Of a stretch of 64,000 nucleotides of DNA, positions 5,818 to 56,815 are shown piece after piece; the first letter of the stretch is position 1; every line of letters begins with the position of its first letter. A program made the translations under genes and the position numbers. The notes under the pieces were generated by a model. The model was not told the DNA's origin and did not search any database. It worked only from the letters and a program-made list of their open reading frames with translations. The stretch is from NCBI RefSeq assembly GCF_001625215.2, contig NC_030388.2:25966558-26030557 (forward strand), written 5' to 3'. This DNA comes from Daucus carota subsp. sativus (lineage: Eukaryota > Streptophyta > Magnoliopsida > Apiales > Apiaceae).

Positions 5818-7650
5818 AGGTGATCTCAGTTCCTTAAGCAAGTATATATCTTTTACTATAATATTCATGTCACCCGTAGTATGCTGAGTTCCCCTTCATA
5901 TAAGATATAACTAATCCCCTGGCCACGTTCATCAGTGTGTTCACATTCTCACCTAGGATATATTACTTGCAGGCTGTTTTTTCCATCCCATGTCGCAGTT
6001 TTGGGAGATAAGTTCATGTTATGTCAAAGCCCCCCTGCTATAAGGTTTGCAAAAGAAGTTGAAGTTGGATAAATTCTTGAAGACACGAACAGGAAGGAAG
6101 AAAGTGGAAGTTAGAAAGTTTAATGTAGTGAGGATGGGTTTTATCAAATGTTGAGAAAACATGGAGTTGATAGCTTTTTTTGCCAGGTGGAGTTGGTAGC
6201 TTTGACTTGTGTTAAAAACTTAAAATGTAAACTTTTGTCAAAATTAGCGTCTCGTAACCCAGTGTAAATCTTCACAGATGTGATCAGTTACCAAGCTGAA
6301 ACCTTGACCAATTTGACATGCTACCAATTTATCTTGTTGCGCTGGTCAGTAGCACACTTATCTCGATATAATGTAGTATATAAATTATCTACCAATTTAT
6401 CTTGTTGATACATGTATTTAATTGAATGTAACATGAATAACTAGCACTGGTTGATACATATACTGACAAGATGTTGTGATGTTGTCAGGCTATAAATAAC
6501 ACCCCCTTCTCGATGGTCCTTTGTAAAAAAATTATTTCGACTTAGTTGAGTCTTTTATTCCTTTTTATTTATCATTTTTATTATACAGTTGAACTTCGAT
6601 AAAGTTATAATTGATAATGTAATATTTTCAATAAAGTAATTTTTTCCTGGCTCAATATAATGTAGATAATGTATGTATATTCACGATATAATAATATTTT
6701 TTGTTGGTCCAATGTTATTAAAAGTTTAACCGGTTATTTAAAAAAGTTTAACTATATCATACATCTACCTTGTAGTAAATCAACATAATACAATGGATAA
6801 CATAACAAATATCGATAAGGATGAAAAGATGTTCTTTTTCATTTGTCTATTGTTTATTTAATATCATAGAAGTCAGCACAACATATATTTTTTAAATTGG
6901 GATGGAGAAACTGAAAAAATGAAATTATTGGAATGATTTTTGGCACACTATTCTGTAAAGAAGATAGATGGCACCTTGTTGCAGTCTTGCAGATGCGTGA
7001 GAGAGAGGAGAAATGTCCCACATCGAGGAAAAGAAGATATACACACCAGGGGAGTAGTATATTAAAAGGGGGCACACAAAGGGTGAATGTTAAAAGGGTC
7101 AGTTGGCTAAATATGCCACGCTCATCCTTGAATGGTGAGTGCTGTATGGCTATCAAGACATATGGCTGACATAATTTGTGCAACTCAAAGGGTTGGCTCG
7201 CTTTGGTCGACCCTACTATTCTTTAGTCCTAAATCTTATCATATTCTAAAATTTAAGAAAGAAAACATTGTTTTCTTTTAAGAATTTCAAGAGGTATAAG
7301 AAACCGAGGAAAAACCAAGTTTGAGTTAATTGCTACTGGTTCTATATCAAGAATACTAAATTATTCTCTGTTGAAATAGTTACAAAGACCTTTTTAATGC
7401 TAAAACTAAAATTTCATAAATATTTATTAAGGGCTGGTAGATGAAAATAGCATTTTAGTAATTCATTGCCTCTGGTAAAAAAACAATAAACTAACTCCAG
7501 GTCCAGAATTTAAAAATTACAGAACTCTGCTTTACAGTTCATATTCAATTGATCCCATACTCTACAACATCATCAATATCTTATTGCCAATTTTTACACC
7601 AAACACAACATCAACGCTACTCAACTTATTCCTAACACGGCTGAGCAAGA
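5818..7650. other. Intergenic region between convergent ARP9 and ECI1
   Basis: This is the shared 3' flank of two convergent genes. It is AT-rich and contains a stretch near 6590-6790 about GAACTTCGATAAAGTTATAA that resembles an old dispersed repeat also glimpsed near 9060-9200. I find no supported gene. Confidence 0.5.
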
Positions 7651-12485: not shown

Positions 12486-15400
12486 ATGGAAGCAATGGCT
12501 TTAGATGGCATTGATGTAAAGGAAGAGGAGAATATGAAGGTAATTAAATCGATATTTGGGTGTGATGTGCCTGAGAGCAATGTTAAATCCGTGTTGTTGA
12601 AGTGTAAAAACGATCTGGGTGTTGCTATTAATGAGATTCTTGATAACCCTTTGGTTTTGTCTTCGGATTTCGGGGTTAAGAAGACGGTTACGAGCACCGG
12701 GGCTCGTGTGATGGCGCAGTTTAAGGGGGAAGAGGGTGAGGAGTGTGTGGATGTGAAACCCCTTTTGGAGTGGAAGGTGGAGGGGAAGGGAGAAGGGGAG
12801 GTTGATATGGGGCCTCACTGCGCGTTATGTGTTCAATGGAATCGATGGAATGGTGGTGAGGGGGGAGATGAATGTGAGGGTGTGGTTAAGGTTGAGGAGG
12901 AGTGTGGACAGATTGTTCGAGAAAATGGGGATGGGATTATTTGTGTTGAGGATGAGGGAGGGAGTGAGGGTAAGGGTGTGGTTAAGGTGGATGAAGAGTG
13001 TGGAAAGGGGGATGTTGAAATGGGGTGTGAGTGTGGACCGGTTGTTCGAGAAAGTGTTGATGTGGTTTGTGTTGAGGATGAGGGGGGGAGTGAGTGTAAG
13101 GAGGTAGTTAAGGTTGAGGAGTGTGAAAAGGGGGACATTGAAATGGGATGTGAGTGTGCACCAATTGTTCGAGAAAATGTTGATGTGGTTTGTGTTGAGG
13201 ATGAGGGGGGGAGTGAGTGTAAGGAGGTAGTTAAGGTTGAGGAGTGTGAAAAGGGGGATATTGAAATGGGATTTGAGTGTGCACCGATTGTTAGAGAGAA
13301 TGTCGATGTGGTTTGTGTTGAGGATGAGGGGGGAAATGAGTGTAAGGAGGTAGTTAAGGTCAAGGAGGAGTGTGAAAAGGATATTGAAATGGGATTTGAG
13401 TGTGCACCGATTGTTAGAGAGAATGTCGATGTGGTTTGTGTTGAGGATGAGGGGGGAAATGAGTGTAAGGAGGTAGTGAAGGTCAAGGAGGTGTGTGAAA
13501 AGGGGGATGTGAAGATGAATTGTGAGGGTGAGCCGCCTGTTGAAGAGGGTGTCGGGGAGAATGATTTTGTTGAGGATGAAGCAGAGAGTGCGTACAGGCC
13601 TCTGGTCAAGGGGAAGAAACAAGGTGGTGTGAAGCGAAACAATGACAGAGCTCTTGTTGTGAAAGATGGAGCAATCATGGTTGAGCCGTTGTCTTCGGTG
13701 CCTGCGAAGCCGAAGATGTCTATGTATGATAGGTTGAAACCTTCTGGTGTGAAGAAGCAAAAAGTGGAGGATAATGTGTTGAGTACTGTTGTGATTGATG
13801 ATGCGGATTTTCCGGAAGAGGAAGATTGGTTGTTGGTGGGAAGGACTGCCATTACTGGGCTTTCGACAACTAGAGGGAGGAAGTTGGAGAATAATGAGGT
13901 TGTCCACTTGGCATTTCCTGGCAGTGACATGAAATCGAAGTGTAGTTCACCATTTATTCGGTCAAAGACAGTTGCTGCCTTGTCGGGGATTGTTCGTTTT
14001 TCAACCACAAGATATGGAGAGGTAAATATCTATTTTCAATGTCAAATCCAAATCCTTTTACTTTCATTCAGTTTCCAAATCAAATTAACTATATTTGTCA
14101 GTCATTTGGTTCACATTGTTAATATTAGCATTTTTTTAATCAGTCACTTACAGCTACTTGAACTATTGGTCTTTTGTAGTCGTGTTATTGCTATATTGTT
14201 CTCATTATACACTTGAAAGTTTATGCAGTTATTCCTTTAGCCCCAATGTTGGTCACCAATTAAATAATGATCTCGAAATGTGTTTAGAAATCTAAGTAGG
14301 TTTTACTTTCTTATAAACCTAGGTGTTAATAGTTGGGCTGCATCAATTCGAGCTCACTTGTTAGTGTATATACTAATGCATGAAATTTGTATGTTCATGG
14401 TACAAACAGATTGGTCGTCTTCCAATGGAGTGGGGGAAATGCCTCATTCCACTAGTTAACTCTTCTAAGGTGAAAGTTCTTTGTCGGTGCATAGCTGTTC
14501 CTACAAATCTGCAGTTGATGCAAGAAATATTGTTGTATGGAAGGTAAATTGACATTTAACTTGGCAAGATGTTATCTTTTGTTTGTAATTAGCTTTCTTA
14601 TTTATACTATTGGTTACAATTATATTTCCTAAGACAAACGTAAAAGTTCTTACGTTTATTCTTTCTTTTGCTGGCAGCTTTTATATTCATCGTTCGCTTT
14701 TCACAGAAGTCACCAACTCATCCTGGAAGCTAGATGCTCCTTCTAACATTGACTCAACTATTTATCCTCTCTTGACTTTGTTCAAGTTACTAAAGATACA
14801 ACCATATCAGAAGGTACTTTACATAGTGGAACTGAGACTTTTCAGATGCAATTCAATTTTGCTGTCTTATTGATATGTTTTTCTATTACTTTCAATCAGG
14901 CTGAATTTACCCCGGAGGAACTTCAGTCAAGAAAACGTGGTTTGAACTTAGATGTATGTTTGAAGGCCTGGCTCAACGTGTTTTATTTGGAAACTAGATA
15001 GGTTAAGATAATTTTCAGCTGTAACTTTTTAAATATTGACAGGATGAATCTAAAGAATTTGCTGGTGTGTTGCCCGTGCTGAAACGAGGCAAAGGTTGCC
15101 AGCCAGACCATGGTAAAGATGAGCAAGCTATACTGGAATCATCCTTAAACAAGCTTGTTGGTGCTGCAGATGTGTATAACTTGGAGGTAAAATTATTATT
15201 GCTCAAACATTAATATATGAGTTATTAAATTGTGAGTTTTCAATTTTGTTTTTCTCTCTTTATCTTTTGGTTTTTTTATAATGTATAGGAGATGGAACCC
15301 CCAAGTACTCTTATGTGTGACTTAAGACCATACCAGAAGCAAGCACTCTACTGGATGACAGAATTGGAGAAGGGAGTTGATGCCGAGAAAGCAACAAAAA

Positions 15401-20621: not shown

Positions 20622-20769
20622 TATTTTTGACAAGGAAATGAATATTATTTTATTTTGAATTTGCTTAGATCAGAACCTATCCAACAGTAAAAAGGCCCTG
20701 AATAACCATATTTTAACTTTTAATGCCCATAATAACAATATTTGATAAAATGGCCCCTAATAACCATTA

Positions 20770-20873
20770 GAGACGCGGCTGTATTAGCGTCTATGTCTGA
20801 GACTAAGACGCTACAGCGTGTAGCGTCTCCCCCTTTTTTAATATAGACCCAAACGCTACACGCAGTAGCGTTT
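20770..20873. repeat. Left cluster of ACGCTAC/GTAGCGT palindromes
   Basis: Three units: 20770-20792 (imperfect), 20806-20828 (AGACGCTAC-N5-GTAGCGTCT, perfect 9-bp arms) and 20851-20873 (AAACGCTAC-N5-GTAGCGTTT, perfect 9-bp arms). They lie just inside the left terminal repeat, where transposase or accessory-protein binding sites would be expected. Confidence 0.85.
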
Positions 20874-21023
20874 CCCTTTAATATAAATAAATCCTCTTAA
20901 AAACAACGGCTAACATCACAGAGGAGAGGAGAGTAGTGATATATACAGAGGGAGGAGAGGGTGATTTCTTAAAGTTATATATAACCATCTACTGAAGCGA
21001 GCTGATTCAACGACTTATAACCT

Positions 21024-24000
21024 ATGGATTTCAATGTATGTTCTTCATATTTGGGCGATTTTAATGTCAAAAATGTTTTAATTTTCACTGTTTTGACATG
21101 CCTGCTATGTGTTTGATGAATGTTTCTTAAAGTATTTCAATGCCTGCTATGGATTTCAATGTATGTTCTTTCATATTTGGCCGATTTCTTAAAGTGATAT
21201 ATGCCTGCTATGTGTTTTGACATGCCTGTGTTAATCTATGTCCTGCTATGTGTTTGTTGTATGTTTCGCAAGAATTCAAAGACAGCTGACACAGATTCTT
21301 ATCAAACTGATATCATACTGTATGGTGCTCAATTGCAGACCTCACGCCAAGCAGCAATGTATATGTATTAATTTGAAAGAAATATAAGCTGTAAATGAAA
21401 AGAATCAGTACTGTTAGGATAGCATTAACTATGAAAACACCTCTAATATCTTGATATAATTATGGTCTCTCATTCGAATATAATTATGCTCTTATCATCT
21501 GGGGGAACACAAAAAAATTAAAACAATAATAAAACAATGCTTAACTTTTATCTTGCTCCGAAGTATGAATTTCTTGACTAGTTTTCTCCGTAATCCGCCT
21601 TTCGGGCTCCTGCCATTTTACAGTATGTTTTTTTACTTTGTATTATTAGCCTGTGCTCAAGATTGCAGTCTCAATATGTGCTCCTAGCTTGACTTATATT
21701 TGGATGTATTATCAGATTACATCTTAGTTTTTGATATTTGTAAAACGATAGAAATTCCTATAAATTTTAACAACAGGACTCCTTATAATTCCGTGCACTG
21801 TTTCTGTTTCTTGAGATCACAGAAGTTTAATTCATGACAATTTTTTAGATTTTTGGAGGCAGATGAGTAAATATTGTCATGACCGACCAATATACCGATT
21901 TTTAAACTCTGCCGATTATTATTTTGTACTGCACCCCTGCAGGCTGCAGCTGCTTATAAACAAAAGGTTTCTTGATCTAATGCACCAGAAGTGAAACAAA
22001 AGGATTTTTAATGACCTAGCTAGCGTTACACTACTTGAAAGTGTTGAGAACTTATTTCCGCGCACACATACATTGCTTTTGTTATTAGCATGATTAATAT
22101 TGACAGGATATGACTATCTCTTTATTATGTATTATTATATGTCTTTGGATGGCTAATTAATTATGAGAATTGACATTAGCATATTAAGACATGATTTATC
22201 GGTGAATAATATACATGCTATTTTATTATATTATTGGTTATTGGATTTACATGATACTATTATATACCATTCTGCGGGAATCGTAGTATTTGTATTGTGT
22301 TAATTTAATTAGTTTCTATCTAAGGTTAGTATGATGTGCTGACTTTGTATTTCCTTGTTTTTGTTCACAGGCTATTATTAGAGACCAGGGACCTCGTGAT
22401 CCTAGCCTTCTTCACCTACAGGCCACTCATAGGTCTCGTTCTGTCTGGAGAACTGGTGCTGCGCCCTCGCAGTATTTCAGGCGTCGTGATGCCAACCAGT
22501 CTGATTTGAACATTGATGTTCGATTGATCCCCATTCTGCAGGCAGCCGGTTTTTATGGGGTAGCTCGGGTATCCACTCTTCAACTTGATTGGAGTTTGCT
22601 TGGTGCTCTGGTAGAGAGATGGCGACCAGAGACACATTCATTCCACCTGCCGATGGGAGAGTGTACTATTACACTGCAGGATGTTGGTGTCTTGCTCGGG
22701 TTACCCATTGACGGAGAGCCCGTTATGTGTCCTGTAGGCCCTCCACCTGGACAGAGATGGGAGACCATCGTTGGTGAGATTTTTGGACAGATTCCTCCAC
22801 CCGAGGCTTTCAATAACTCGAGGCTACGGCTCACATGGGTAGAGGGTCTCACTCCAGCGAGATTACGTGATGATGCAGGCGTTGAGGAGATCAGGCTTCA
22901 CGCCAGGTGTTACTTGCTACAGTTGTTTGGGGGGTCACTGTTCACCGACCATTCTGGTGGACTTATACACTCCTCGTGGGTTCATTTTGTTCGTGACCTG
23001 GAGGCGCTCGGAGGCTATGCATGGGGTCCAGCTGTTCTAGCTCGTCTATACAGGGAGCTTTGCAATGGTTGCAAAGCGAGTATTAAGGAGGTAGCTGGAT
23101 GCCTTCTCTTACTGCAGCTATGGGCATGGGAGAGGTTGCCCACTCTTGCCCCTGTTCGGACCACTGTTCCATTAGAGGATGTTGCTTTTTGGGGGCATCA
23201 GCTTCCAGGACCACATGGAGCCAGGTACATAGTAGCTGTGTTTTTACTGGTTTGTACATTTCAAGTTGTGAATTGTCTTTTTAAATTGACTAATGTGTTT
23301 TTTTGTATTCCTATGATGTCTATAGGTGGCTTGTTGGACATTCATTCGTTGAGAGTGATGGAAGCACTGTGACTACGTCTCGGGCGGCATTGGATGCGCT
23401 TGCTCCACATGAGTTTATTTGGGAGCCTTATGCTGGGATTCTTGATACACTGCCAGACTATTGTTTAGCCGGCCGTCATCTCTGGCGCTTTCGCGGCCCC
23501 ATGATATGTGTTTACATAGTCGAGCCACATCAGCCGGACAGAGTTGCTAGACAGTTTGGCATGATACAGCGTATTCCCGATCAGCCACACTACTCCCACG
23601 AGCATCACGGTATGACGCTGAGGGGCCAGAAGGTCTTGGATTATGCAGTCGTACATCAGCCCAGTATGACACACTGGCAGCATCGTCTGGAGCATATTTG
23701 GATTGATGACGTGATTGATGGTCATGCTACAGTCCCAGAGTACATGGATTGGTACTTGCCTCGGACTGTGAGGTTCATTAGTCAGTTGGGTGCACTGCAT
23801 ACCCACCTGGTAAGTATTTTTTGACTATTATATCTGTACTTTCTGTGATATGTGTCGTGTGTATTCCTTATCTGTAGTTGGGGTATTAGTTGTATTAGTC
23901 GTCATGCTTTATTTGATGGGTTCTAGTAGTTGATATTGCATTTGTATTCGTTGTATTTCAGGGAGTTGTGCTAGAGACTATAGCAGCCAGGACAGCAGAC

Positions 24001-24846
24001 GTCCTCCCGGATATGTCCCAACTAGCCACTCAGAGTCTGCACCATCTCCGAGATCGGAATGCATACAGGTTTGATCCACGTCAAGTTGAGGAGCAGGATG
24101 CTAGACAGGACGGGGGAGGGGAGGATGCAGGTGGTAGAGGAGGCCGTGGTGGTGGCAGGAGAGGCCGTGGTGGTGCCGAGAGAGGCCGTGCTCGTGGCAG
24201 AGGAGGCCGTGCTCGTGGCGATGGAGGCCGAGGCAGTGGACGGTTAGTTGATGAGCCGGATGATGATGCTGATCATGCGGATCATATAGGTACAGGCGAG
24301 GATCGAGGCCCAGAGTCTTCTGCTACTGCTGCTACAGCTACTGTTGCTGATGCTTCTGCTGCTGCTGCTACTGCCACAGCTACTGCTACTGTAGCCGAGG
24401 CTTCTACTCCCCATGCTGCTGCTGCTGCCACAGCTACTGCTACTGTAGCCGAGGCTTCTACTCCCCCTGCTGCTGCTGCCGCTGCTACTACTACCGCCGG
24501 TGACTGGTGGCCTAGTTTTTCTCTAGGCCTAAGTTTGCCTTCACAGCCAGTACCTGAGCAGCAGACTTCTCAGATGCCAGATACCAGTACAGAGCAGCCT
24601 CCTCCTGTTGTGCAGCGTCAGCATAGGATTCGACCTTGGCATGGTACACCAGAGGTACCCCCTTTTGACTTGGGCAGCTCATCACAGTCTACACAGTCTA
24701 CGCAGCCTAGTCAGCCTAGTCAGCCTAGTCAGCCTAGTCAGCCTGCTACGCAGCCTATTGTACCCCTTTTTGATGTCTTTTTTGTTCGCCGGTCAAAGAG
24801 GGCTAAGAAGGTTCCTGACTGTGGTACTGGTTCACATAGGGGATGA
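21024..24846 (+). CDS. Plant mobile domain protein (MAIN/PP7-long-form-like) carried by MULE
   Basis: Exons are 22371-23224, 23326-23809 and 23962-24846, all with GT-AG borders and in-frame joins. A 12-nt first exon at 21024-21035 (ATG GAT TTC AAT) is inferred because exon 2 opens at an acceptor with no ATG nearby. The product is about 744 residues. Its first ~450 residues are a plant mobile (aminotransferase-like) domain, marked by ITLQDVGVLLGLPIDGEPV and many conserved Trp residues. The tail is low-complexity: an RGG/RGR-rich, nucleic-acid-binding-like block (about 24110-24240), Ala/Thr repeats, a Ser-Gln-Pro repeat, and a basic RRSKRAKK near the end that could act as a nuclear signal. PMD proteins such as MAIN and MAIL1 work in the nucleus in gene and transposon silencing, and TE-borne copies are known. 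The actual function of this copy is unknown. The micro-exon is the weakest part. Confidence 0.8.
24099..24240 (+). repeat. RGG/RGR-coding repeat tract in PMD gene
   Basis: This is a tandem run of GGCCGTGGTGG-like units coding for Gly-Arg-Gly-Gly stretches within the last PMD exon. A further run at 24700-24740 encodes repeated Ser-Gln-Pro from CAGCCTAGT units. Confidence 0.8.
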
Positions 24847-24981
24847 TTATATTTGTCGGTTTTTGATGATATTCTAGTTATAGGATGCTGAACTTGTGAT
24901 ATATGATAGCACGGATCTTGTAAATATTTTAATTTCATGTCGTATGTTTCTGTTTTAGTATAGCTTCAATGTTTTAATAAT

Positions 24982-25120
24982 TAAATTGGCCGACGGTTAG
25001 GGTTTAGGATGGAGGGAGTAGGGCCGGTAGGCCCTACTCCCTCGAGCCTAAACCCTAATTAAGCGAGGCTGAAGGGCCGAAGGCCCTGAAGCCGAGACGC
25101 CGGCGGAATGATAATTTTAT
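24982..25120. repeat. GC-rich hairpin unit, copy 1
   Basis: This is the first of two direct copies of a 139-bp unit (second at 25179-25317). It contains a 62-bp inverted repeat at 24997-25058 (TTAGGGTTTAGGA...CCTAAACCCTAA, two mispairs, GGTA loop) and a second small hairpin GGGCC-GAA-GGCCC. The arms include telo-box AAACCCTAA motifs. It lies about 150 bp after the PMD stop. Confidence 0.85.
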
Positions 25121-25178
25121 AACCGTTAACATTTAGGGTTTAGGTTTGGGTTTTAGAAAGATTAATTCATACTGCATA

Positions 25179-25317
25179 TAAATTGGCCGACGGTTAGGGT
25201 TTAGGATTGAGGGAGTAGGGCCGGTAGGCCCTACTCCCTCAATCCTAAACCCTAATTAAGCGAGGCTGAAGGGCCGAAGGCCCTGAAGCCGAGACGCCGG
25301 CGGAATGATAATTTTAT
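25179..25317. repeat. GC-rich hairpin unit, copy 2
   Basis: This is the second copy of the 139-bp unit. Here the 62-bp inverted repeat (25194-25255) is perfect: 29-bp arms around a GGTA loop. Relative to copy 1, the changes inside the stem restore pairing. The unit ends CGGCGGAATGATAATTTTAT like copy 1. No protein-coding potential is seen. Confidence 0.85.
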
Positions 25318-25518
25318 ACCTTAATTTAACTTAAATTAAGGCAAGGTTTTAATTCAAATTTCCAGCAAAAAAGATTTGATATTTTTACAAATCATTTTTA
25401 ATATACATTTTTAATTTAATATACATTTTACAAATTCATTATACATTTTACAAATCATTTTTAATTCAAACAAATGCGTTTTTAAATTAAAAGAAATTCA
25501 ATAATTAGTATGATGAAC

Positions 25519-25760
25519 ACGCTACTGGCAGTAGCGTTTCTTTAGTTTATATTAATATAACATACAGACGCGAAAGCGTGTAGCGTTTTAACAGTTAATG
25601 AATATAACTTGCAGACGCGAAAGCGTGTAGCGTTTTCCTTTAACAGTTAATGCATGAAAACGCTTTTTAAAATAGCGTTTCAGTTTTCTATAAACCTGCT
25701 AGACGCTAGTGCGTCTAGCGTTTTTGGTTTTAAACCTATACCCCAACAGCAGAACGCTAT
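25519..25760. repeat. Internal cluster of GTAGCGT palindromes upstream of transposase
   Basis: Units lie at 25519-25537, 25567-25588, 25614-25635, 25657-25680 and 25701-25723, with a half site near 25752. The two units with core GACGCGAAAGCGTGTAGCGT sit in a short direct repeat that also shares AACAGTTAATG. The motif is the same as at both ends of the element. The cluster ends about 130 bp before the transposase ATG, so it overlaps its likely promoter or leader. Confidence 0.85.
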
Positions 25761-25890
25761 ACTCCCAGACATAACACTTGTACTGCCATACACATATACA
25801 CCACACTGCCATACATTTTGTGCCCTAATTCACCCTAATTCACCCAAAATCTGCCCTAATTCATATTTCAAACATTCTATACATACAATC

Positions 25891-28270
25891 ATGGCTTCTG
25901 GTTCGGGCTCGGGTTCGAAAGCTGGGAATACGGTTGTTGGATGGATATACCATGACGGTAATATTATCGAATCTCAATTAGAAGGTTTTATTTATGATAA
26001 ACCTGTTTCAAAGCATGTTAGGCTCGATTTATCTATGAATTATGCCAATTTATGTGCTTTGTTACATTCCAAGTTGAAGATTGATAGTAGTAGTAGGTTG
26101 AGGATATTTTATAGGTCTAAAAATCCCGATAATTTGAAATTCGGGATTATACCTATTGAGGATGATGATGATGTAGAATTAATGTTTGGTGTTGTGGTGT
26201 CAAAAGGGATGCCATTTTTTGTTGAACTTTATGTAGAGAAATTGTCTTGTGATGGAAATTTGGTAAGGAGTAGTTCGAGTGTGGGGGAGAAGAGTAGTGG
26301 GCGTGATTCGGGGGGTAGTCATTTTAGACATGATCAGGATGTGGGTGATAGCTATATGTCTGTGGATACTTCCCATTTAGAGAGGATGACCTCATTCGAC
26401 GATGTCGAGGTTGAAAATAATGAGGTCCCGTTGGAGTTGAAGGAGGGAAGGTTATTTAGCACGAAAGAGGATTTGATGCATGTGGTGAAGCAATACCACA
26501 TTCAGAATCACTTAGAGATTGGAGTGATACGATCAGATCCGAGTAGTTGGTATGTTGCTTGCAAGTATAGAAATGATGGTTGTATTTGGAAGTTGAAAGC
26601 TAGAAAGAGGACTTCACATGGTAAATTTCAAATCATGGAGAGTGTAGGACCACATACTTGCTTGAGCACTACCATCACACGAGATCATCCCAACTTGACA
26701 GCCTCGGAGATTGCTGGAGTGATTAAATCTCAAATTGTTGCTGATCCGACAATTAAGGAGAAGGTGTTGTTAGCCACTGCTAAAGATAAGTTTGGATATG
26801 AGCCGGGCCGAAAGAAGATTAGGAATGCAAAGAAGATTGCATTGGAAGATATTCATGGCTCGTGGGAAGGATCATATGAGGACTTGCCACATTTGATGGA
26901 AACTCTTCAGTCCTTCAATGTGGGCACGAAGGTGGACTGGTGCTTTAAGGAGGATGATGCAGAGCACCTAGAGGTATGTTCTATCACCGTGTAATTTAAT
27001 TCATTTTCATTAAGTATTTGGACTCCGTTATTCATTTTCTAATGTAATGTTTGTTATTTATTTGGAACAGGAAGTGACATTTAGGAGATTGTTCTGGGCT
27101 TTTAAGCCATGCATTGATGGCTTCGAGTATTGCAGACCCGTCATACTGATAGACGGGACTCATTTGTATGGACCATATCCGGGTGTTCTTCTGAGTGCAA
27201 CAGCTGTAGATGGTTTTAGTCACATTCTACCATTGGCGTGTGCTATAGTGGAGTCGGAGAACAACTCTAGCTGGGAGTGGTTCATGGATAGGTTGAGGAG
27301 CTTGGTGGTTGGTCGGAGGCACGGGATATGTATCATTTCTGATAAACATTTAGGGATCATGGCAGCTATGCAGAAGGAGGGATGGTGTGAGCCACTTAAT
27401 CATCATCGGTACTGTGTGAGACATTTTGCCACAAACTTTGCCACCAAATTCAAGAAAGCTGGATTGAAGGATAGATTGGTTGAGTTGGCATATCAGGTCC
27501 AGCCTAAGAAATTTGAACTACTATGGGGTGAGTTGTTGGCACTAGAGCCTCGAGCACTTGCATGGTTTGAGGACAAACCAGTAAGGAACTGGTCACTGGC
27601 ACATGACTACGAGCATCATCGTTTTGGCATCATGACTACCAACCATGCTGAGAGTTGGAACAATGCAATTGTCGATGCTCGGAGGCTCCCGCTTACTTCA
27701 TTGGTGCGAGTACTATTCCATAAGACGGTTGAGTACTTTGATCAACGTCGCCTTGAGATTGCAACACAAGTATCGAAAGGTAATATTTTCACCAAATATG
27801 CATCCCATCTCTTGAATCGTGCTGTAAGACGTTCCACGGGTCATAGTGTGAAGATATTTGATCGGGGGACTTGGTTATTCCAAGTAGTTACAAGGAAGGA
27901 TGGGTTGAAAGGGGGAAACACACACACGGTTCGTCTTATGGAGTCTAGTTGTACTTGTGGAAAATTTCAAGCTTATAGAATCCCTTGCTCCCATGTAATT
28001 GCATGTTGTTCACATGTGAGGATGGACTTCCATGGGTTTGTTGGTGATTGGTATAAGTTAGAGAACCAATCGAAGATTTATAATGGTATCTTTGAGCCAA
28101 TTCCAAACAAGGGTGATCCTCGATATCCTACCGAGCTTGCTTTCCCGAGAGTTGTGCATGACCCCGATATGGAGAAGAAGAAGGGCCGAAGAAAATCAAC
28201 GAGGTACAAGAACGAAATGGATTTCCAGAGCCGGGGAAAGCATGGAGGGACTTCATCGAGAGATAGTTGA
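25891..28270 (+). CDS. MuDR-family (Mutator-like) transposase
   Basis: Two exons, 25891-26973 and 27071-28270, give 760 residues without a stop. The start ATG at 25891 follows the palindrome cluster and opens MASGSGSGSK. Domain order: PB1-like N-terminal segment (about 12-110), MuDR N-terminal DNA-binding domain (about 190-300, with CKYRNDGCIWKLKA), MULE transposase core, SWIM zinc finger. Candidate catalytic residues are D389 (ILIDGTHLYG), D452 (IISDKHLGI) and E555 (TTNHAESWNN). The SWIM finger is CTCGKFQAYRIPCSH. The C terminus is basic (KKKGRRKSTRYK). It would cut and rejoin the terminal repeats of the element at 20694-28869 in the nucleus. An intact frame with all key residues suggests the source is young. 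An ORF extending upstream to 25654 exists, but it runs through the palindromes and lacks conserved residues. Confidence 0.93.
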
Positions 28271-28486
28271 TTCTCTAGTTGTTTTTATTGTTGTAGTACT
28301 ATGGTTCAAGTACAATTTGATATGGTTGTTTGAATTTCGCGAAAATTGGAATTGTATGAATGATTTATGATATAAATTAAATTTTATGTTGTTATGAATT
28401 AGTTTATATTGTCCATGCAATTTACATTGAATTGGTGTTTTAAAGTTTTGGTTTTTAAGTTGCGGTTGGAGTTTTGTTTTTTTAGT

Positions 28487-28793
28487 GGCAGAAGGCAGTA
28501 GCTTCTGCCTTGGTTTCAAAAATTTAACAGGACAACGCTATTAGGTGTAGCGTTTTAGTGTTTTTATTGAACTTAGACGCTACACGGTGTAGCGTTTCTG
28601 CTGTTTAACAAAAATCTATATTTAGAACTGAGACGCTACACCGAGGAGCGTTTTTGTTGATTTAAAGAACTGAGACGCTATACGATGTAGCGTTTGTTGT
28701 TTTAACAAAAAAACAACTTTTTTTGTAACTTAGACGCTACACGATGTAGCGTTTTTGTTGTTTTAACAAAAACGCTACTCTAAAAACGTCTCT
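28487..28793. repeat. Right cluster of ACGCTAC/GTAGCGT palindromes
   Basis: Units lie at 28534-28555, 28575-28597, 28631-28653, 28673-28695, 28732-28754 and 28769-28793, spaced about 40-60 bp. The consensus is GACGCTACACG-TGTAGCGTTT. A separate palindrome GGCAGAAG-N7-CTTCTGCC sits at 28487-28509. The cluster ends at the inner edge of the right terminal repeat. Confidence 0.85.
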
Positions 28794-28869
28794 ACTGGTT
28801 ATTGAGGGCCATCTTCCGGGTATTTGGTTATTTAGGGCATTTTGAACCTAAATATGGTTATATGGGGCC

Positions 28870-29619
28870 AAAACCCATCCTGTTGATAACAATATTAATC
28901 TCACCCACTCTGTACTTAACGTGCACCACTCTTTTTTTATATGGAGTTTTAGGGGACACGTTGAAGCAATCCTCGCCGTTCGATCACTCGTTTTATTGCT
29001 TGTTTTGTGTTTTGTGCGTTGGAAAACATGGAGGATCTCACGTGATGGCGAATTCGATATGATTTATGACATGATTTGTCGCACCTAAATTCAGCACAAA
29101 TATTATTTATAAGATTCTTTTTCGGGTAAACACTATGTCAGTCACTATCCCAAACTTAATTAACTTGTTTAATTTTAATATACTACGATTTAGAGTTTAC
29201 TGACAGTATAGTCATACAATTTATTTTTAAAATTTAATTTTATAAACCAAAATGTTAAATATAAATTTTTTGTTTATGAAAAAAATTAAATTATGGAACT
29301 AGACGGTCAATATATCTAAGTTATGTGTTTGAAATTAATTAGCTCTTTTAACTTGAGATGAAAGGAATAATAAAAATTCATTCAACTTGTCAACAAAATA
29401 CGTCTGGAATTCATTAATTAATTAATTTACTTTCTTTGTTTTGAATTTTTATCACACACTGTCAAATGTTTTAACTATCTATCTAAAATTATTATATATA
29501 AGCCTTTTTGTGAATAAAAATATATAATATAGTATAAAAAAGTTATCTTATAACTAAAACAATTATAATATATGTCCAAAAATTAAATAACTGCAAAAAT
29601 CAAATAATTTATACAAAAA
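28870..29619. other. AT-rich gap between MULE and Helitron
   Basis: This is AT-rich sequence with no reading frame or repeat that I can assign. Confidence 0.4.
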
Positions 29620-32929: not shown

Positions 32930-33141
32930 AGAAATGTGATTGATTAGATCTAGATATGTATGTACACTGTAGTATGTGTGTGTGTATACATGTATTGGTG
33001 TATGTATAACTCACTTTGACCGGTTTTAATTCGATGTAGATTATATTTTTGGCAACGAGATTTTAATGGATTCGAGATGATGGTGAAGTAGTTTGCTGGT
33101 AACTGCATAAGTGAATCCCGTGAAGACAATAGTATGAGTAA

Positions 33142-33536
33142 GAGCATCTCCAACGGCGTTGGCTATAATTGTTGGCTAAATTGGACCTGTAAGACATTAT
33201 GTAAAATTTGCTGAACCTGTAAGACATTTTGCTTCAATGGTACTGGCTATATTGGTTGGCTATAATTTAAAAATAGTATGTTATTAATATTTTAAATTGT
33301 TAAAATAGAATATATCAGTTCAATATGGTAATAAATGATGTACAATCTTCCTACAGATTTTCTTACAGACCTGTAGAGGTTCGACAAATTTAGCCATCCA
33401 TAGGAGGTTGGCTAAATTTATAGACAACAGCTGATCATGGTTGGAGTTGGGTTTTTGGAGCTGTTGGCTAAATTTTTTTATTTTAGGTATGCCACCTCAC
33501 TTTTTAGCCAAGGGCTTTAGATGGTTGGAGATGCTC
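33142..33536. mobile_element. PIF/Harbinger-type MITE (395 bp), family copy 1
   Basis: The ends are GAGCATCTCCAAC and GGTTGGAGATGCTC with TAA on both sides (33139-33141, 33537-33539). The interior (GACATTATGTAAAATTTGCTG, GTAGAGGTTCGACAAATTTAG) matches, in reverse orientation, the copy at 38752-39141. Confidence 0.87.
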
Positions 33537-33869
33537 TAACGCACTAAAATCACCTCAAATAATATTACATGGCATCAAAAAATATCTAGTCAAATGTACA
33601 ATAACTTTTTAAATAATGCTAAACCATTCGAAATATAGAATACATATTTCAAATTTTGTGTATAATAGGATTATTATATTTATGAGGGAATATTTATAAA
33701 AATGAAATAATTTGTTATTTGAATTTTTTGAGAAATTTTCTAGATGTTCTCGTATTTCCCTTTTATTTCCGCAAATAGAATGGGGTAAATAATTAATTTT
33801 AACTAGAAACGGAAGTCATTTTATTTGGATGATTTATATACATGCAATGTCTATCATTATTAGCAGAAG

Positions 33870-38240: not shown

Positions 38241-38751
38241 TAATATTTTAATTCACGCACAAACTTAGGAGTAACTTTCAAACAGACACTCAATTTATTC
38301 GGAAGGAGTTGAACACTGTGTAAGATGGGATAAAAATATTTTAGGTGTACAATATGAGATAAATTAATCAATAGTATAATTTCTCGATGGATAAGCACAC
38401 GATGATCAGAGGTATACCAGTTGTAACATGAAAAAAAATGGTAATCAAATCAATAATCATCTGATTTTCGCATAATAATTGACATTCTGCGTATGTCTTT
38501 ACTCATTAGTCAAATGCAAGGCAACAACTCCCACTCAGTTTTATGTATAATGCAGAGACGAGAAAGAGTTTCGATACATCCGATTTTAAGTATAGCTATA
38601 ATACTCATCGTGTATGTTGTATAATATTTTCATTTTTGACATACACTTTTAACTGTTTTGAAAAATAAATCAATATGTTATTCTTTAGAATTATTTTAAT
38701 ATTATCAAATTTTTAATTCATCAATTATTTTATTATCCGCTCGACCATTTA

Positions 38752-39141
38752 GAGCATCTCCAACCTTACAAAACCTTTAGGTAAAAAACGAGTTGGCATA
38801 CCTTATATAAAAAATATAGCCAATCTGTTGAAAAAAGCACACTCCAACCACATGAAACTGTTATCTATAATTTTAGCCAACCTCCCATGGATGGCTATAT
38901 TTGTCGAACCTCTACAGGTAAGAAATCTGTAGGAAGATTACACATCATTTATTACCATATTAAACTGATTTATTCTATTTTAACAAACTAAAATATTAAT
39001 AACATACTATTTTTAAATTATAGCCAACCAATATAGCCAATACCGTCGAAACAAAATGTCTTACAGGTTCAGCAAATTTTACATAATGTCTTACGGGTCC
39101 AATTTAACCAACGATTATAACCAACGCCGTTGGAGATGCTC
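38752..39141. mobile_element. PIF/Harbinger-type MITE (390 bp), family copy 2
   Basis: The ends are GAGCATCTCCAACC and CGTTGGAGATGCTC with TTA on both sides (38749-38751, 39142-39144). It is the same family as 33142-33536 but in opposite orientation, 5.2 kb away. Confidence 0.87.
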
Positions 39142-39443
39142 TTAAATATGTGTGTTAAAAATCAAAATCTCAGATTAAAAAAACAAAAAGAGTATATTGA
39201 GCTTGGACGAGTATGAGCTCTAACTTATGGACTTATAAATCTTAAGTAACTTGTTCATACGATAAAAAAATTATAAATGTTTATTTTTAGTCACGAATCA
39301 AATTGTACTTTATTTTTAAAAGAAAGTATTATCGTAAAAACTGAGAAAAAATTCCTTAAAATTGTTTATACAAATAATGTCAAGTATATCTCGCAGCGAC
39401 TGACTGAACGACAAATCGCGTTGAACGAAAACTGATTTCGTTA

Positions 39444-53404: not shown

Positions 53405-54412
53405 TTATACTTATATGTGATAGTTTTACTATTTTGAAATACGAATCACAAGTCTAATGAATTCTAACCGTATTTTAAGGCTAATGGTTGTCTTTACATT
53501 TGATTAATGATCGATCGCCATCAAAAATTTGATTGATTCTTTAATTAATTCGATGATCTAAATTAAATTTATTATTATTTATTTAAAATTATGAATTAAA
53601 CACCTTTTAACTTTTAAAGTTTCAATCTGATTTTTGAAGGTGACAATAAAGAAATAAAAGTTGTCTAGTTTGACAAAAATAATAAAATTATGATTAATTT
53701 ATCTAAAAATATAAATTGAACTCTAATGAATATTAAATAAAATAATAAATTAGGGCAACAGATCGAGGGATGTCTTCATGTCTACACTAGAATGAAAAAG
53801 AAAAATAAATAAATTACGAGATGTTAGATACGACATGCTTGATAGTTCGTTATCCAACAGAAAAATGATTTTGTCCTTGTAAGCACCCCATCCACTCGTT
53901 TTTAATATACAGCAGTGCCCCGTCCATATATCCACTTATATTTATTCCAAGAACAACAAGCATTATTAATTAATCATCAATATATATATATATAAAGGAG
54001 GATGCGGGCGTCTCTAGAATTGTTCGATTCAGTCTTCTGATTTTTCTTAAATTTCGGATAGAAAATATAGTTATAATTCAAAAATTCAGGTTTAAGAATT
54101 CTAAAAGTAATACAACTCTTTTCTTATCAAATTCTAAACATGATACAATTCTTTTCTTATTTAGTATTTCTTATTGAATTCTAAAGATAAGACAATTCTT
54201 TTCTTATTTAGTAATCCTAATAGAAATAGGATTATATTTATTCAAACTAACAAAATCATAGATAAAATACAATTTATATTTAAGATTTGTAAGGTAATAC
54301 GTACAATTTATATTATTGATTTACTCTTATAATTTTCTTAATTTTCGAATAGAAAATAAAGGATTGTAAAGATAATAATCATTAAAAAAACTGATAGCAA
54401 CAAAAATTAGAA

Positions 54413-54884
54413 CCATAAAAGAATAATAACTTTTAACTAATAAATAGGCATCAAAAAATAAAAAAAATTAACAAATAAAATAATATATAAAAAATAGGAA
54501 TCATATATTAATTTTATGATAATGTAAATGGGTCTTGATTAGTATTGTGTTTGACGGGCACGGGAGGCGGCCCAAACTAATTTTTATCTAAATAATAATA
54601 ATTTTTTTATTAGTATTATGTTTGACGGGAAAGTCGCTAAAATAATTTTTATAAAAGAATAATAATTTTTAACTAATAAATTGGAATCAAAAAATAAAAA
54701 TAATTAACAAATAAAATAATATATAAAAAATAGGTATCATATATTGATTTTATGATAATGTAAATGGTTCTTGATCAGTATATCGTTTGACGGGCACGGG
54801 AGGCAGCCCAAACTAATTTTTATCCAAATAATAATAAATTTTCTATTAGTATTATGTTTGACGGTAAAGTCGCTAAAATAATTT
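54413..54884. repeat. Local tandem duplication (period about 236 bp) in Helitron copy A
   Basis: The block from AAAAGAATAATAACTTTTAA through GACGGGCACGGGAGGC to AAGTCGCTAAAATAATTTTT appears twice (about 54413-54648 and 54649-54884) in copy A but once in copy B (about 56118-56345). Confidence 0.82.
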
Positions 54885-55013
54885 TTTATCTATGTTATAA
54901 TATATTTTTTTGTTACACAATTTAAAATAATCTCTAATTTTGTCATAATTAGAATAATTTTTATTAGTATTGTGTTTGACACTAAAACGACTCAAACTAA
55001 TATCTAAATTATA

Positions 55014-55270
55014 CTTCCTCCATCCCATTTTAAGTGTCCTGTTTAACTTTTGAATGGTTAAATTGACCAAATTTTAACTGAGATTTACACATATAATATA
55101 ATTTTTAAAAGTAAAAAAAATTATGTCATTATAAAATACATACAATATACTATAAAATGTAATTTTTAGTTTTTCAAAATAATAATGAATTTGTTTTTTA
55201 TGCTTGGTCAAATTTGGTCAATTTGACCGTTATAAGTCAAAACAGGATGCTTAAAATGGGATGGAGGGAG
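55014..55270. mobile_element. Stowaway-type MITE (257 bp) inside Helitron copy A
   Basis: The ends are CTTCCTCCATCCCATTTTAA and TTAAAATGGGATGGAGGGAG. TA lies at 55012-55013 and 55271-55272. The matching site in Helitron copy B (AAATTATAATGTTTTG near 56491) lacks the element and has one TA, giving a direct empty-site proof. Confidence 0.93.
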
Positions 55271-55576
55271 TAATGTTTTGTTATAAGTATTGTGTTTGAC
55301 AAGAGAGCGACTCAAACTAATTTTGATCTAAATTATAATATTTAATTTATCATAAAAATAATAATTATGGATTAATATTGTTTTTGACGGGAGTGGGGTT
55401 CGAACTAATTTTATTATTAGTATTGTGTTTGACAGGATGATCACTTAAACAAATTTTTATATCAATTATAATATTTTTTATTTGTAATATGTTTAATGGG
55501 AAGATGACTCAAAATAATTTTTATCCTATTATAATTCTAATTCATATCAAAATTTATCACGCCGCCGCGAAGCGCG

Positions 55577-56815
55577 ATATATAATGGAGGATGCGAGCGT
55601 CCTATAATTGCTCGATTCAGTCTTCTGAATTTTCTTAAATTTCGGATAGAAAATATAGTTGTAATTCAAAAAATCAGATTCAAGAATTCTAAAGATGATA
55701 CAATTCTTTTCTTATTGAATTCTAAAGATGATACAATTCTTTTCTTTTTTATTTAATATTTCTTATTGAATTCTAAAGATGACATAATTCTTTTCTTATT
55801 TAGTAATCCTAAAAGAAATAAGATTATGTTTAAAAGAAATCAACTTGAAGGATTTCAAAAGTTAATATAATTCTTTTTTTTTTCAGATTCTAGAGGTAAT
55901 ACAATTTTTTTATTATCTAGGAATGCCAAAAGGAATATGATTATATTTATTTAAACTAATAATCATAGATAAAATACAATTTATATTTAAGATTTGTAAG
56001 GTAATACGTACAATTTTTATTTCCGATTTAGTCTTATAATTTTCTTAAATTTCGAATAGAAAATAAAAGATTGTAAAGATAATAATCATTAAAAAACTAA
56101 TACCAAAAATATTAGAACCATAAAAGAATAATAATTTTAAACTAATAAATAGGAGTCAAAAAATAAAAATAATTAACATATAAAATAATACATATAAAAT
56201 AGGAATCATATATTGATTTTATGATAATGTTGATTAGTATTGTGTTTGACGGGCACGGGAGGCGGCCCAAACTAATTTTTATCTAAATAATAATAAATTT
56301 TCTATTAGTATTATGTTTGACAGGAAAGTGGCTAAAATAATTTTTTATCTATGTTATAGTATATATTTTTGTTAAAACGGGACCACAGTTCAAAATACTT
56401 TTTGTCCAATTATAATCTTTAATTTTATCATAATTAGAATAATTTTTATTAGTATGTGTTTGGCAATAAAGCGACTCAAACTAATATCTAAATTATAATG
56501 TTTTGTTATTGGTATTGTGTTTGATAAGAGAGCGGCTCAAACTAATTTTGATCTAAATTATAGTATTTAATTTTATCATAAAAATAATAATTATGGATTA
56601 ATATTGTCTTTGACGGGAAGGAGGTTCAAACTAATTTTATTATTAGTATTGTGTTTGACAGGATGACCACTTAAACAAATATTTATACCAATTATAATAT
56701 TTTTCATTTGTGATATGTTTAACGGAAAGATGACTCAAATAATTTCTATGTTATTATAATACTTATTCATATCAAAATTTATCACGCCGCCGCGAAGCGC
56801 GGCTTTTTTCACTAG
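55577..56815 (+). mobile_element. Helitron copy B of a head-to-tail tandem
   Basis: Starts ATATATAATGGAGGATGCGAGCG and ends with the GC-rich hairpin GCCGCCGCGAAGCGCGGC (56786-56803), TTTTTTCA and CTAG|T (56812-56816). No Rep/helicase is encoded. The repeated motif TTAGTATTGTGTTTGAC occurs many times inside both copies. Confidence 0.82.

Follow-up and report, generated by a model that had tools for sequence, protein, structure and literature searches.

Why should a transposon carry a gene of the plant mobile domain (PMD) family, when host proteins of that family, MAIN and MAIL1, support silencing of transposable elements and bind PP7L according to the excerpts available to us (PMC7156037, PMC9899485)? 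The question is raised by a 64-kb stretch of the Daucus carota genome (the window, which here means the whole 64,000 nucleotides analysed), in which a single two-gene Mutator-like element (MULE) at 20687..28876 on the + strand holds a PMD gene followed in tandem by a transposase gene. The predicted structure of the PMD protein matches the fold of VANC21, an anti-silencing protein, and the non-coding DNA of the element carries arrays of palindromes with one fixed spacing. We propose, with a confidence evenly balanced between acceptance and rejection, that PMD, like VANC, binds DNA in a sequence-specific manner, recognises the element that encodes it and counters silencing.

Both genes have open frames at this locus. 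The PMD gene comprises four exons on the + strand: exon 1 (21024..21035), which encodes MDFN, is followed by a GT-AG intron and has the same start as the public carrot gene model P0002 (99% identity over PMD residues 1–480); exon 2 (22371..23224); exon 3 (23326..23809), an open frame in the gene model; and exon 4 (23962..24846), which contains an RGG-rich low-complexity tail. The 744-residue product has no internal stops, and its Pfam PMD match (PF10536, 4.7e-80, residues 64–432) covers positions 1–346 of a 347-position profile. The transposase, of 760 residues and also without internal stops, is encoded by two + strand exons (25891..26973, the DNA-binding region, and 27071..28270) and has 100% identity, after rounding, to public model P0121. 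These two models, together with the placement of the window at C8:25966558–26030557 of a 441-Mb assembly, identify the DNA as carrot. It matches DBD_Tnp_Mut at residues 184–248, Transposase_mut and, in exon 2, the MULE domain (PF10551, 2.8e-17) and a SWIM finger. Among 21 relatives compared, the candidate catalytic acid D389 is invariant and D452 nearly so; E555 we take to be the third catalytic residue. An earlier note on this DNA had predicted a MuDR-type transposase with a SWIM finger and an intact PMD gene on the same strand, and had named splice sites at 21035/22371 and 26973/27071; the Pfam matches agree, and those sites are the exon borders of our models.

VANC proteins of the Arabidopsis VANDAL MULEs (VANC21 and VANC6) are, like the carrot PMD, second proteins of a MULE. 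In its own element, VANC21 binds YAGTATTAY within non-coding DNA and removes methylation, and the motifs differ between the related VANC21 and VANC6 families; such short repeated motifs in non-coding DNA, varying between related families, recur in carrot. The two proteins differ by Pfam, VANC belonging to DUF1985 and the carrot protein to PMD. In the structure predictions the carrot protein nevertheless has the VANC21 fold, as does a host-type PMD-phosphatase model. The earlier note had suggested a VANC-like anti-silencing role by a protein of an unrelated family; the role stands as the best-supported mechanism, at the confidence given above, and the fold match lends no support to a lack of relationship. 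Within the 744-residue protein PMD is the sole domain above the Pfam cut-off, which DUF1985 does not reach; DUF1985 was matched in 10 of 64 relatives, with a best E of 0.0012 and with three scores shown that fall below the cut-off. Carrot also has VANC-type DUF1985 frames of its own (L048–L059), with at least 48 matches at E ≤ 0.001, weak and partial ones included.

The palindromes form three arrays: three sites upstream of PMD (20772..20872), five in the intergenic region upstream of the transposase (25518..25722, the site at 25518 starting with C) and five at the right (28534..28753). Their half-sites, ACGCTA/TAGCGT, number 23 in the 1,973 nt of non-coding DNA of the element, one in intron 1 (1,335 nt, counted apart), none in 4,518 nt of coding DNA and seven in the remaining 55,824 nt of the window. 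Across the non-coding DNA of ten copies (this one and the nine introduced below, with 1,200 nt past the transposase used for L012 and L016), 110 of 117 converging ACGCT/AGCGT pairs no more than 40 nt apart are spaced by exactly 9 nt; three of the remainder are spaced by 8 and four by 2. Half-site enrichment and fixed spacing rule out a chance origin. As the 110 palindromes represent 67 different 21-mers, the pattern is one of constant half-sites, one spacing and free cores, which suggests a dimer-binding site. No ACGCT-N9-AGCGT palindrome was found elsewhere in the window, and the flanks of the ten loci are free of ACGCTA/TAGCGT half-sites; two stray ones occur inside the transposase genes of L012 and L015. 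Every half-site contains one CpG. Palindromes with one CpG transition occur once each in L012, L013, L015 and L016, in which both genes are broken, and in none of the six open copies; the CpG observed/expected ratio is 1.05–1.24 in non-coding DNA versus 0.49–0.72 in the genes, values that are only suggestive as to methylation. By eye the half-site TAGCGTT resembles YAGTATTAY, a likeness to which we give no weight.

Two more divergent carrot families, sampled at one locus each, follow the same geometry with other bases. Family 2 (L060), whose transposase and PMD are 57% and 42% identical to those of the window's family 1, has its two genes convergent, and further loci lie near C1:31398125, C5:14406160 and C5:3803242. 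It has no ACGCT-N9-AGCGT palindrome; its sites are CGCAT-N7-ATGCG, a kind absent from family 1, with 10 of 14 converging pairs at spacing 7. Nine of these sites precede the transposase start by 200–550 nt and a tenth precedes PMD; the stretch between the two 3' ends has none. Family 3 (L061, L062; 67% and 59%), represented by 2.5 kb, has AAACGCC-type sites, with 10 of 18 CGC/GCG pairs at spacing 11. CGC-N11-GCG is thus common to all three families, the next inner bases being T then mostly A in family 1, AT in family 2 and mostly C in family 3. No spacing-11 peak was seen in the window outside the element.

PMD and transposase travel together in carrot. Nine further loci, fetched through matches to the intergenic palindromes and hence a sample biased by that part of the element, all match the window copy in the order and orientation of the two genes, with the transposase partly deleted in L016. 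Less biased samples came from protein searches of the carrot genome (the best 59 of 883 transposase candidates and the best 62 of 886 PMD candidates), from which 38 transposase and 35 PMD loci were taken by hand, merging exon pieces. Among the matches listed, a PMD gene lies within 10 kb upstream on the same strand at 22 of 24 transposase loci of at least 84% identity, is nearby at one of three at 60–84%, lies downstream on the opposite strand at three of five at 50–60%, and accompanies none of six at 33–35%; eight of the 35 PMD loci are without a listed transposase. The chance expectation for such adjacency is about 0.0016 per locus. Judged from these copies, PMD and transposase make up a single mobile unit, which belongs to a multi-copy MULE family. 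The earlier note had called for a search of the host genome for other copies with both genes, allowing that they might lack PMD or hold it decayed; the gene is linked at those 22 of 24 close loci and open in 6 of 10 copies. Some PMD models of celery are numbered consecutively with transposase models (locus tags AgCh_031500/031499, 001497/001498 and 003961/003962), and three single models hold both domains (AgCh_028454, 034778 and 025115). Models combining PMD and MULE domains also occur in Vitis, Heliosperma, Senna and Cuscuta, as judged from protein models alone. Fagus, Quercus and Glycine have PMD clusters (P0160, P0207 and P0240) of 87, 69 and 160 members respectively, which suggests that PMDs borne by transposons may be far more widespread in eudicots than has been reported.

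The ends of the element bear on whether this unit has moved. Terminal repeats of 48 nt, 71% complementary, were first seen at 20694–20741 and 28822–28869; comparison with other copies puts the actual ends near 20687 and 28876, giving a left repeat at 20687..20741 (+) and a right repeat at 28822..28876 (-). The ends read G(A/T)AAAA(A/T)GGCCC and GGCCNNNACCC, the latter in seven of the eight copies with both ends, L014 deviating; the right end was not readable in L012 and L016. In five of the eight (L009, L010, L011, L013 and L017) the flanking 9-mers are identical at 9 of 9 positions and in L015 at 8 of 9, with no match in L014 and the window copy. When flanks of different copies were mixed as a control (56 pairs, the best of 49 offsets being kept for each), the match was at most 7 of 9, and around the window copy the best was 6 of 9, so no target-site duplication was found there. 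The duplications at other copies imply that the two-gene unit has, on this evidence, transposed as one in the past. Over 22187–28876 the window copy itself matches its nearest relative, L009 (about 0.37 Mb away), at 97–100% identity in each 500-nt interval; for the three intervals of the first 1.5 kb the values are 65, 44 and 43%. Because of this divergent left end and the missing duplication, the comparison indicates a mosaic of family members whose own ends look recombined, and an intact recent insertion is ruled out. The concern in the earlier note that the two ends might belong to different elements therefore touches the window copy and not the family.

Across the ten copies, both genes are open in six and both are broken in the remaining four (L012, L013, L015 and L016), as scored over PMD exons 2–4 and the whole transposase; all ten retain the transposase start codon, and in seven the first PMD exon was recovered exactly. 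Two PMD types, A and B, occur among family 1 copies. Between the window copy and L011 the PMD domain has dN 0.131 and dS 0.342, and the ratio of 0.38, the between-copy comparison that the earlier note had advised, shows purifying selection between the two carrot types; the low-complexity tail is under weaker constraint (ratios 0.36 to 1.30). Transposases of the same pair are nearly identical (dN 0.005, dS 0.041), and divergent PMD types beside such transposases imply that the PMD gene and left end were swapped as a module, after which both PMD versions stayed open. Relative to the window copy, non-coding DNA is far more divergent than coding windows in eight of nine copies, L009 from 22187 onwards being the exception. 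By these calculations both genes, the transposase included, are under selection. The family looks autonomous.

In the mechanism that we favour, the transposase would cut and join the element, and PMD, with its VANC fold, would most likely bind the palindromes at the element's own promoters and ends, probably as a dimer; the bound DNA would thereby be kept clear of silencing marks, which would allow expression of both genes. Three points here are inferred: that the binder is PMD and not the transposase, that binding is dimeric, and that silencing is counteracted. We rate such self-recognition best because of a VANC-fold second protein, target-like non-coding arrays and a constant site layout with differences from family to family. 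Several observations weigh against it. A sequence search of solved structures with A1, P0029 and A3 gave no VANC21 match at E ≤ 10, so that the PMD–VANC link rests on the fold and on a weak PMD–DUF1985 profile match (P 0.0031, probability 10%), DUF2110 scores nearly equal to DUF1985 in the Pfam scan, and a common fold is no proof of common function. The transposase, with a DNA-binding domain of its own, could own the palindromes; this is the main rival, under which PMD would be a VANC-fold accessory for other DNA or for transposition, and we regard it as rather unlikely. It would account for arrays at both ends, the right one having no promoter for these genes, and for the fact that PMD types A and B (dN 0.13) adjoin the same half-site beside near-identical transposases, which is neutral to slightly unfavourable for PMD as the reader. 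It fits less well with an array that is internal, upstream of the transposase gene, with the promoter-like layout of sites in family 2, and with the absence of CGC/GCG pairs in about 2.4 kb beside a 35%-identical MULE that has no listed PMD, although this control is a single locus.

Diversion of the host machinery, the hijacking that the earlier note had considered, in which PMD competes with or draws off MAIN/MAIL1–PP7L silencing complexes and does not read element DNA, seems improbable to us. It would suit the silencing roles of MAIN and MAIL1 and the Pfam domain that the element's PMD has in common with MAIN, MAIL1, MAIL2 and MAIL3, but leaves unexplained why a VANC fold should occur together with family-specific palindromes. 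That PMD is a captured host gene, a passenger of no function for the element, we consider very improbable given its presence in nearly all close copies, its open frames, its dN/dS ratio, the neighbouring celery models and its retention, in opposite orientation, by a divergent carrot family.

Downstream of PMD the element also holds two 140-nt repeats (24982..25318; units at 24982–25121 and 25179–25318, 98% alike), each with a 29-nt near-perfect hairpin holding the telomere-like TTAGGGTTTAGG/CCTAAACCCTAA; the unit has several matches in each of the other copies too, and an Rfam scan gave no match inside the element. Elsewhere the window contains a U11 minor-spliceosome RNA gene (7091–7217, +, 74.8 bits over the full Rfam model), 123-nt tandem repeats at 12940–13552 within a 582-codon open frame, inverted repeats at 33139–33539 and 38749–39144 (222 nt at 94% and 171 nt at 79%) that are separated by some 6 kb and may mark a different transposon, and nested duplicated blocks in very AT-rich DNA at 54014–56801, a 236-nt tandem pair included. 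ARAGORN found no tRNA in the window.

Like other MuDR-type MULEs, the carrot family combines a transposase with another gene and makes 9-bp duplications; the companion gene is mudrB in maize MuDR and PMD in carrot. VANC itself is known, and so are PMDs in MULEs: as far as the accessible text goes, Ikeda et al. 2017 (PMC5418596) report MULEs that encode PMD-C in several grasses and in Amborella and put forward an anti-silencing role, a suggestion repeated, in the part available, by a review (PMC8616336). They describe those PMD-C as fused to the transposase, whereas in carrot, a eudicot, PMD has a gene of its own, upstream in family 1 and convergent in family 2, and palindrome arrays are not mentioned in that accessible text. 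The novelty claimed in the earlier note is thereby reduced. In mainly open-access literature we found neither CGC-N11-GCG arrays or motif switching nor a PMD–VANC fold relation. No open-access paper was found that combines DUF1985 with PMD, works naming both VANC and PMD treat them separately in the portions available, and none was found on 9lnj, though such a paper may discuss PMD. The carrot sites also differ from the single nine-base motif of VANC21 in being palindromes of fixed spacing.

The VANC21-like fold predicts direct sequence-specific DNA reading by PMD, for which the palindromes, with three natural half-sites, are candidate targets. Tentatively, and at somewhat less than even confidence, we suggest that PMD and VANC/DUF1985 are one superfamily of sequence-specific DNA readers, in which MULE-borne PMDs would be self-specific anti-silencers that bind CGC-N11-GCG as dimers and whose specificity would change by way of the neighbouring bases. 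On this view the host MAIN/MAIL proteins, sharing that fold, would themselves bind DNA directly, one possible target being the DOWN motif CATGCAGTTT of genes they control. If the proposed role of PMD is true, transposon anti-silencing by the VANC fold would extend beyond VANDALs, and one fold would be common to host silencing factors and a transposon's counter-factor.
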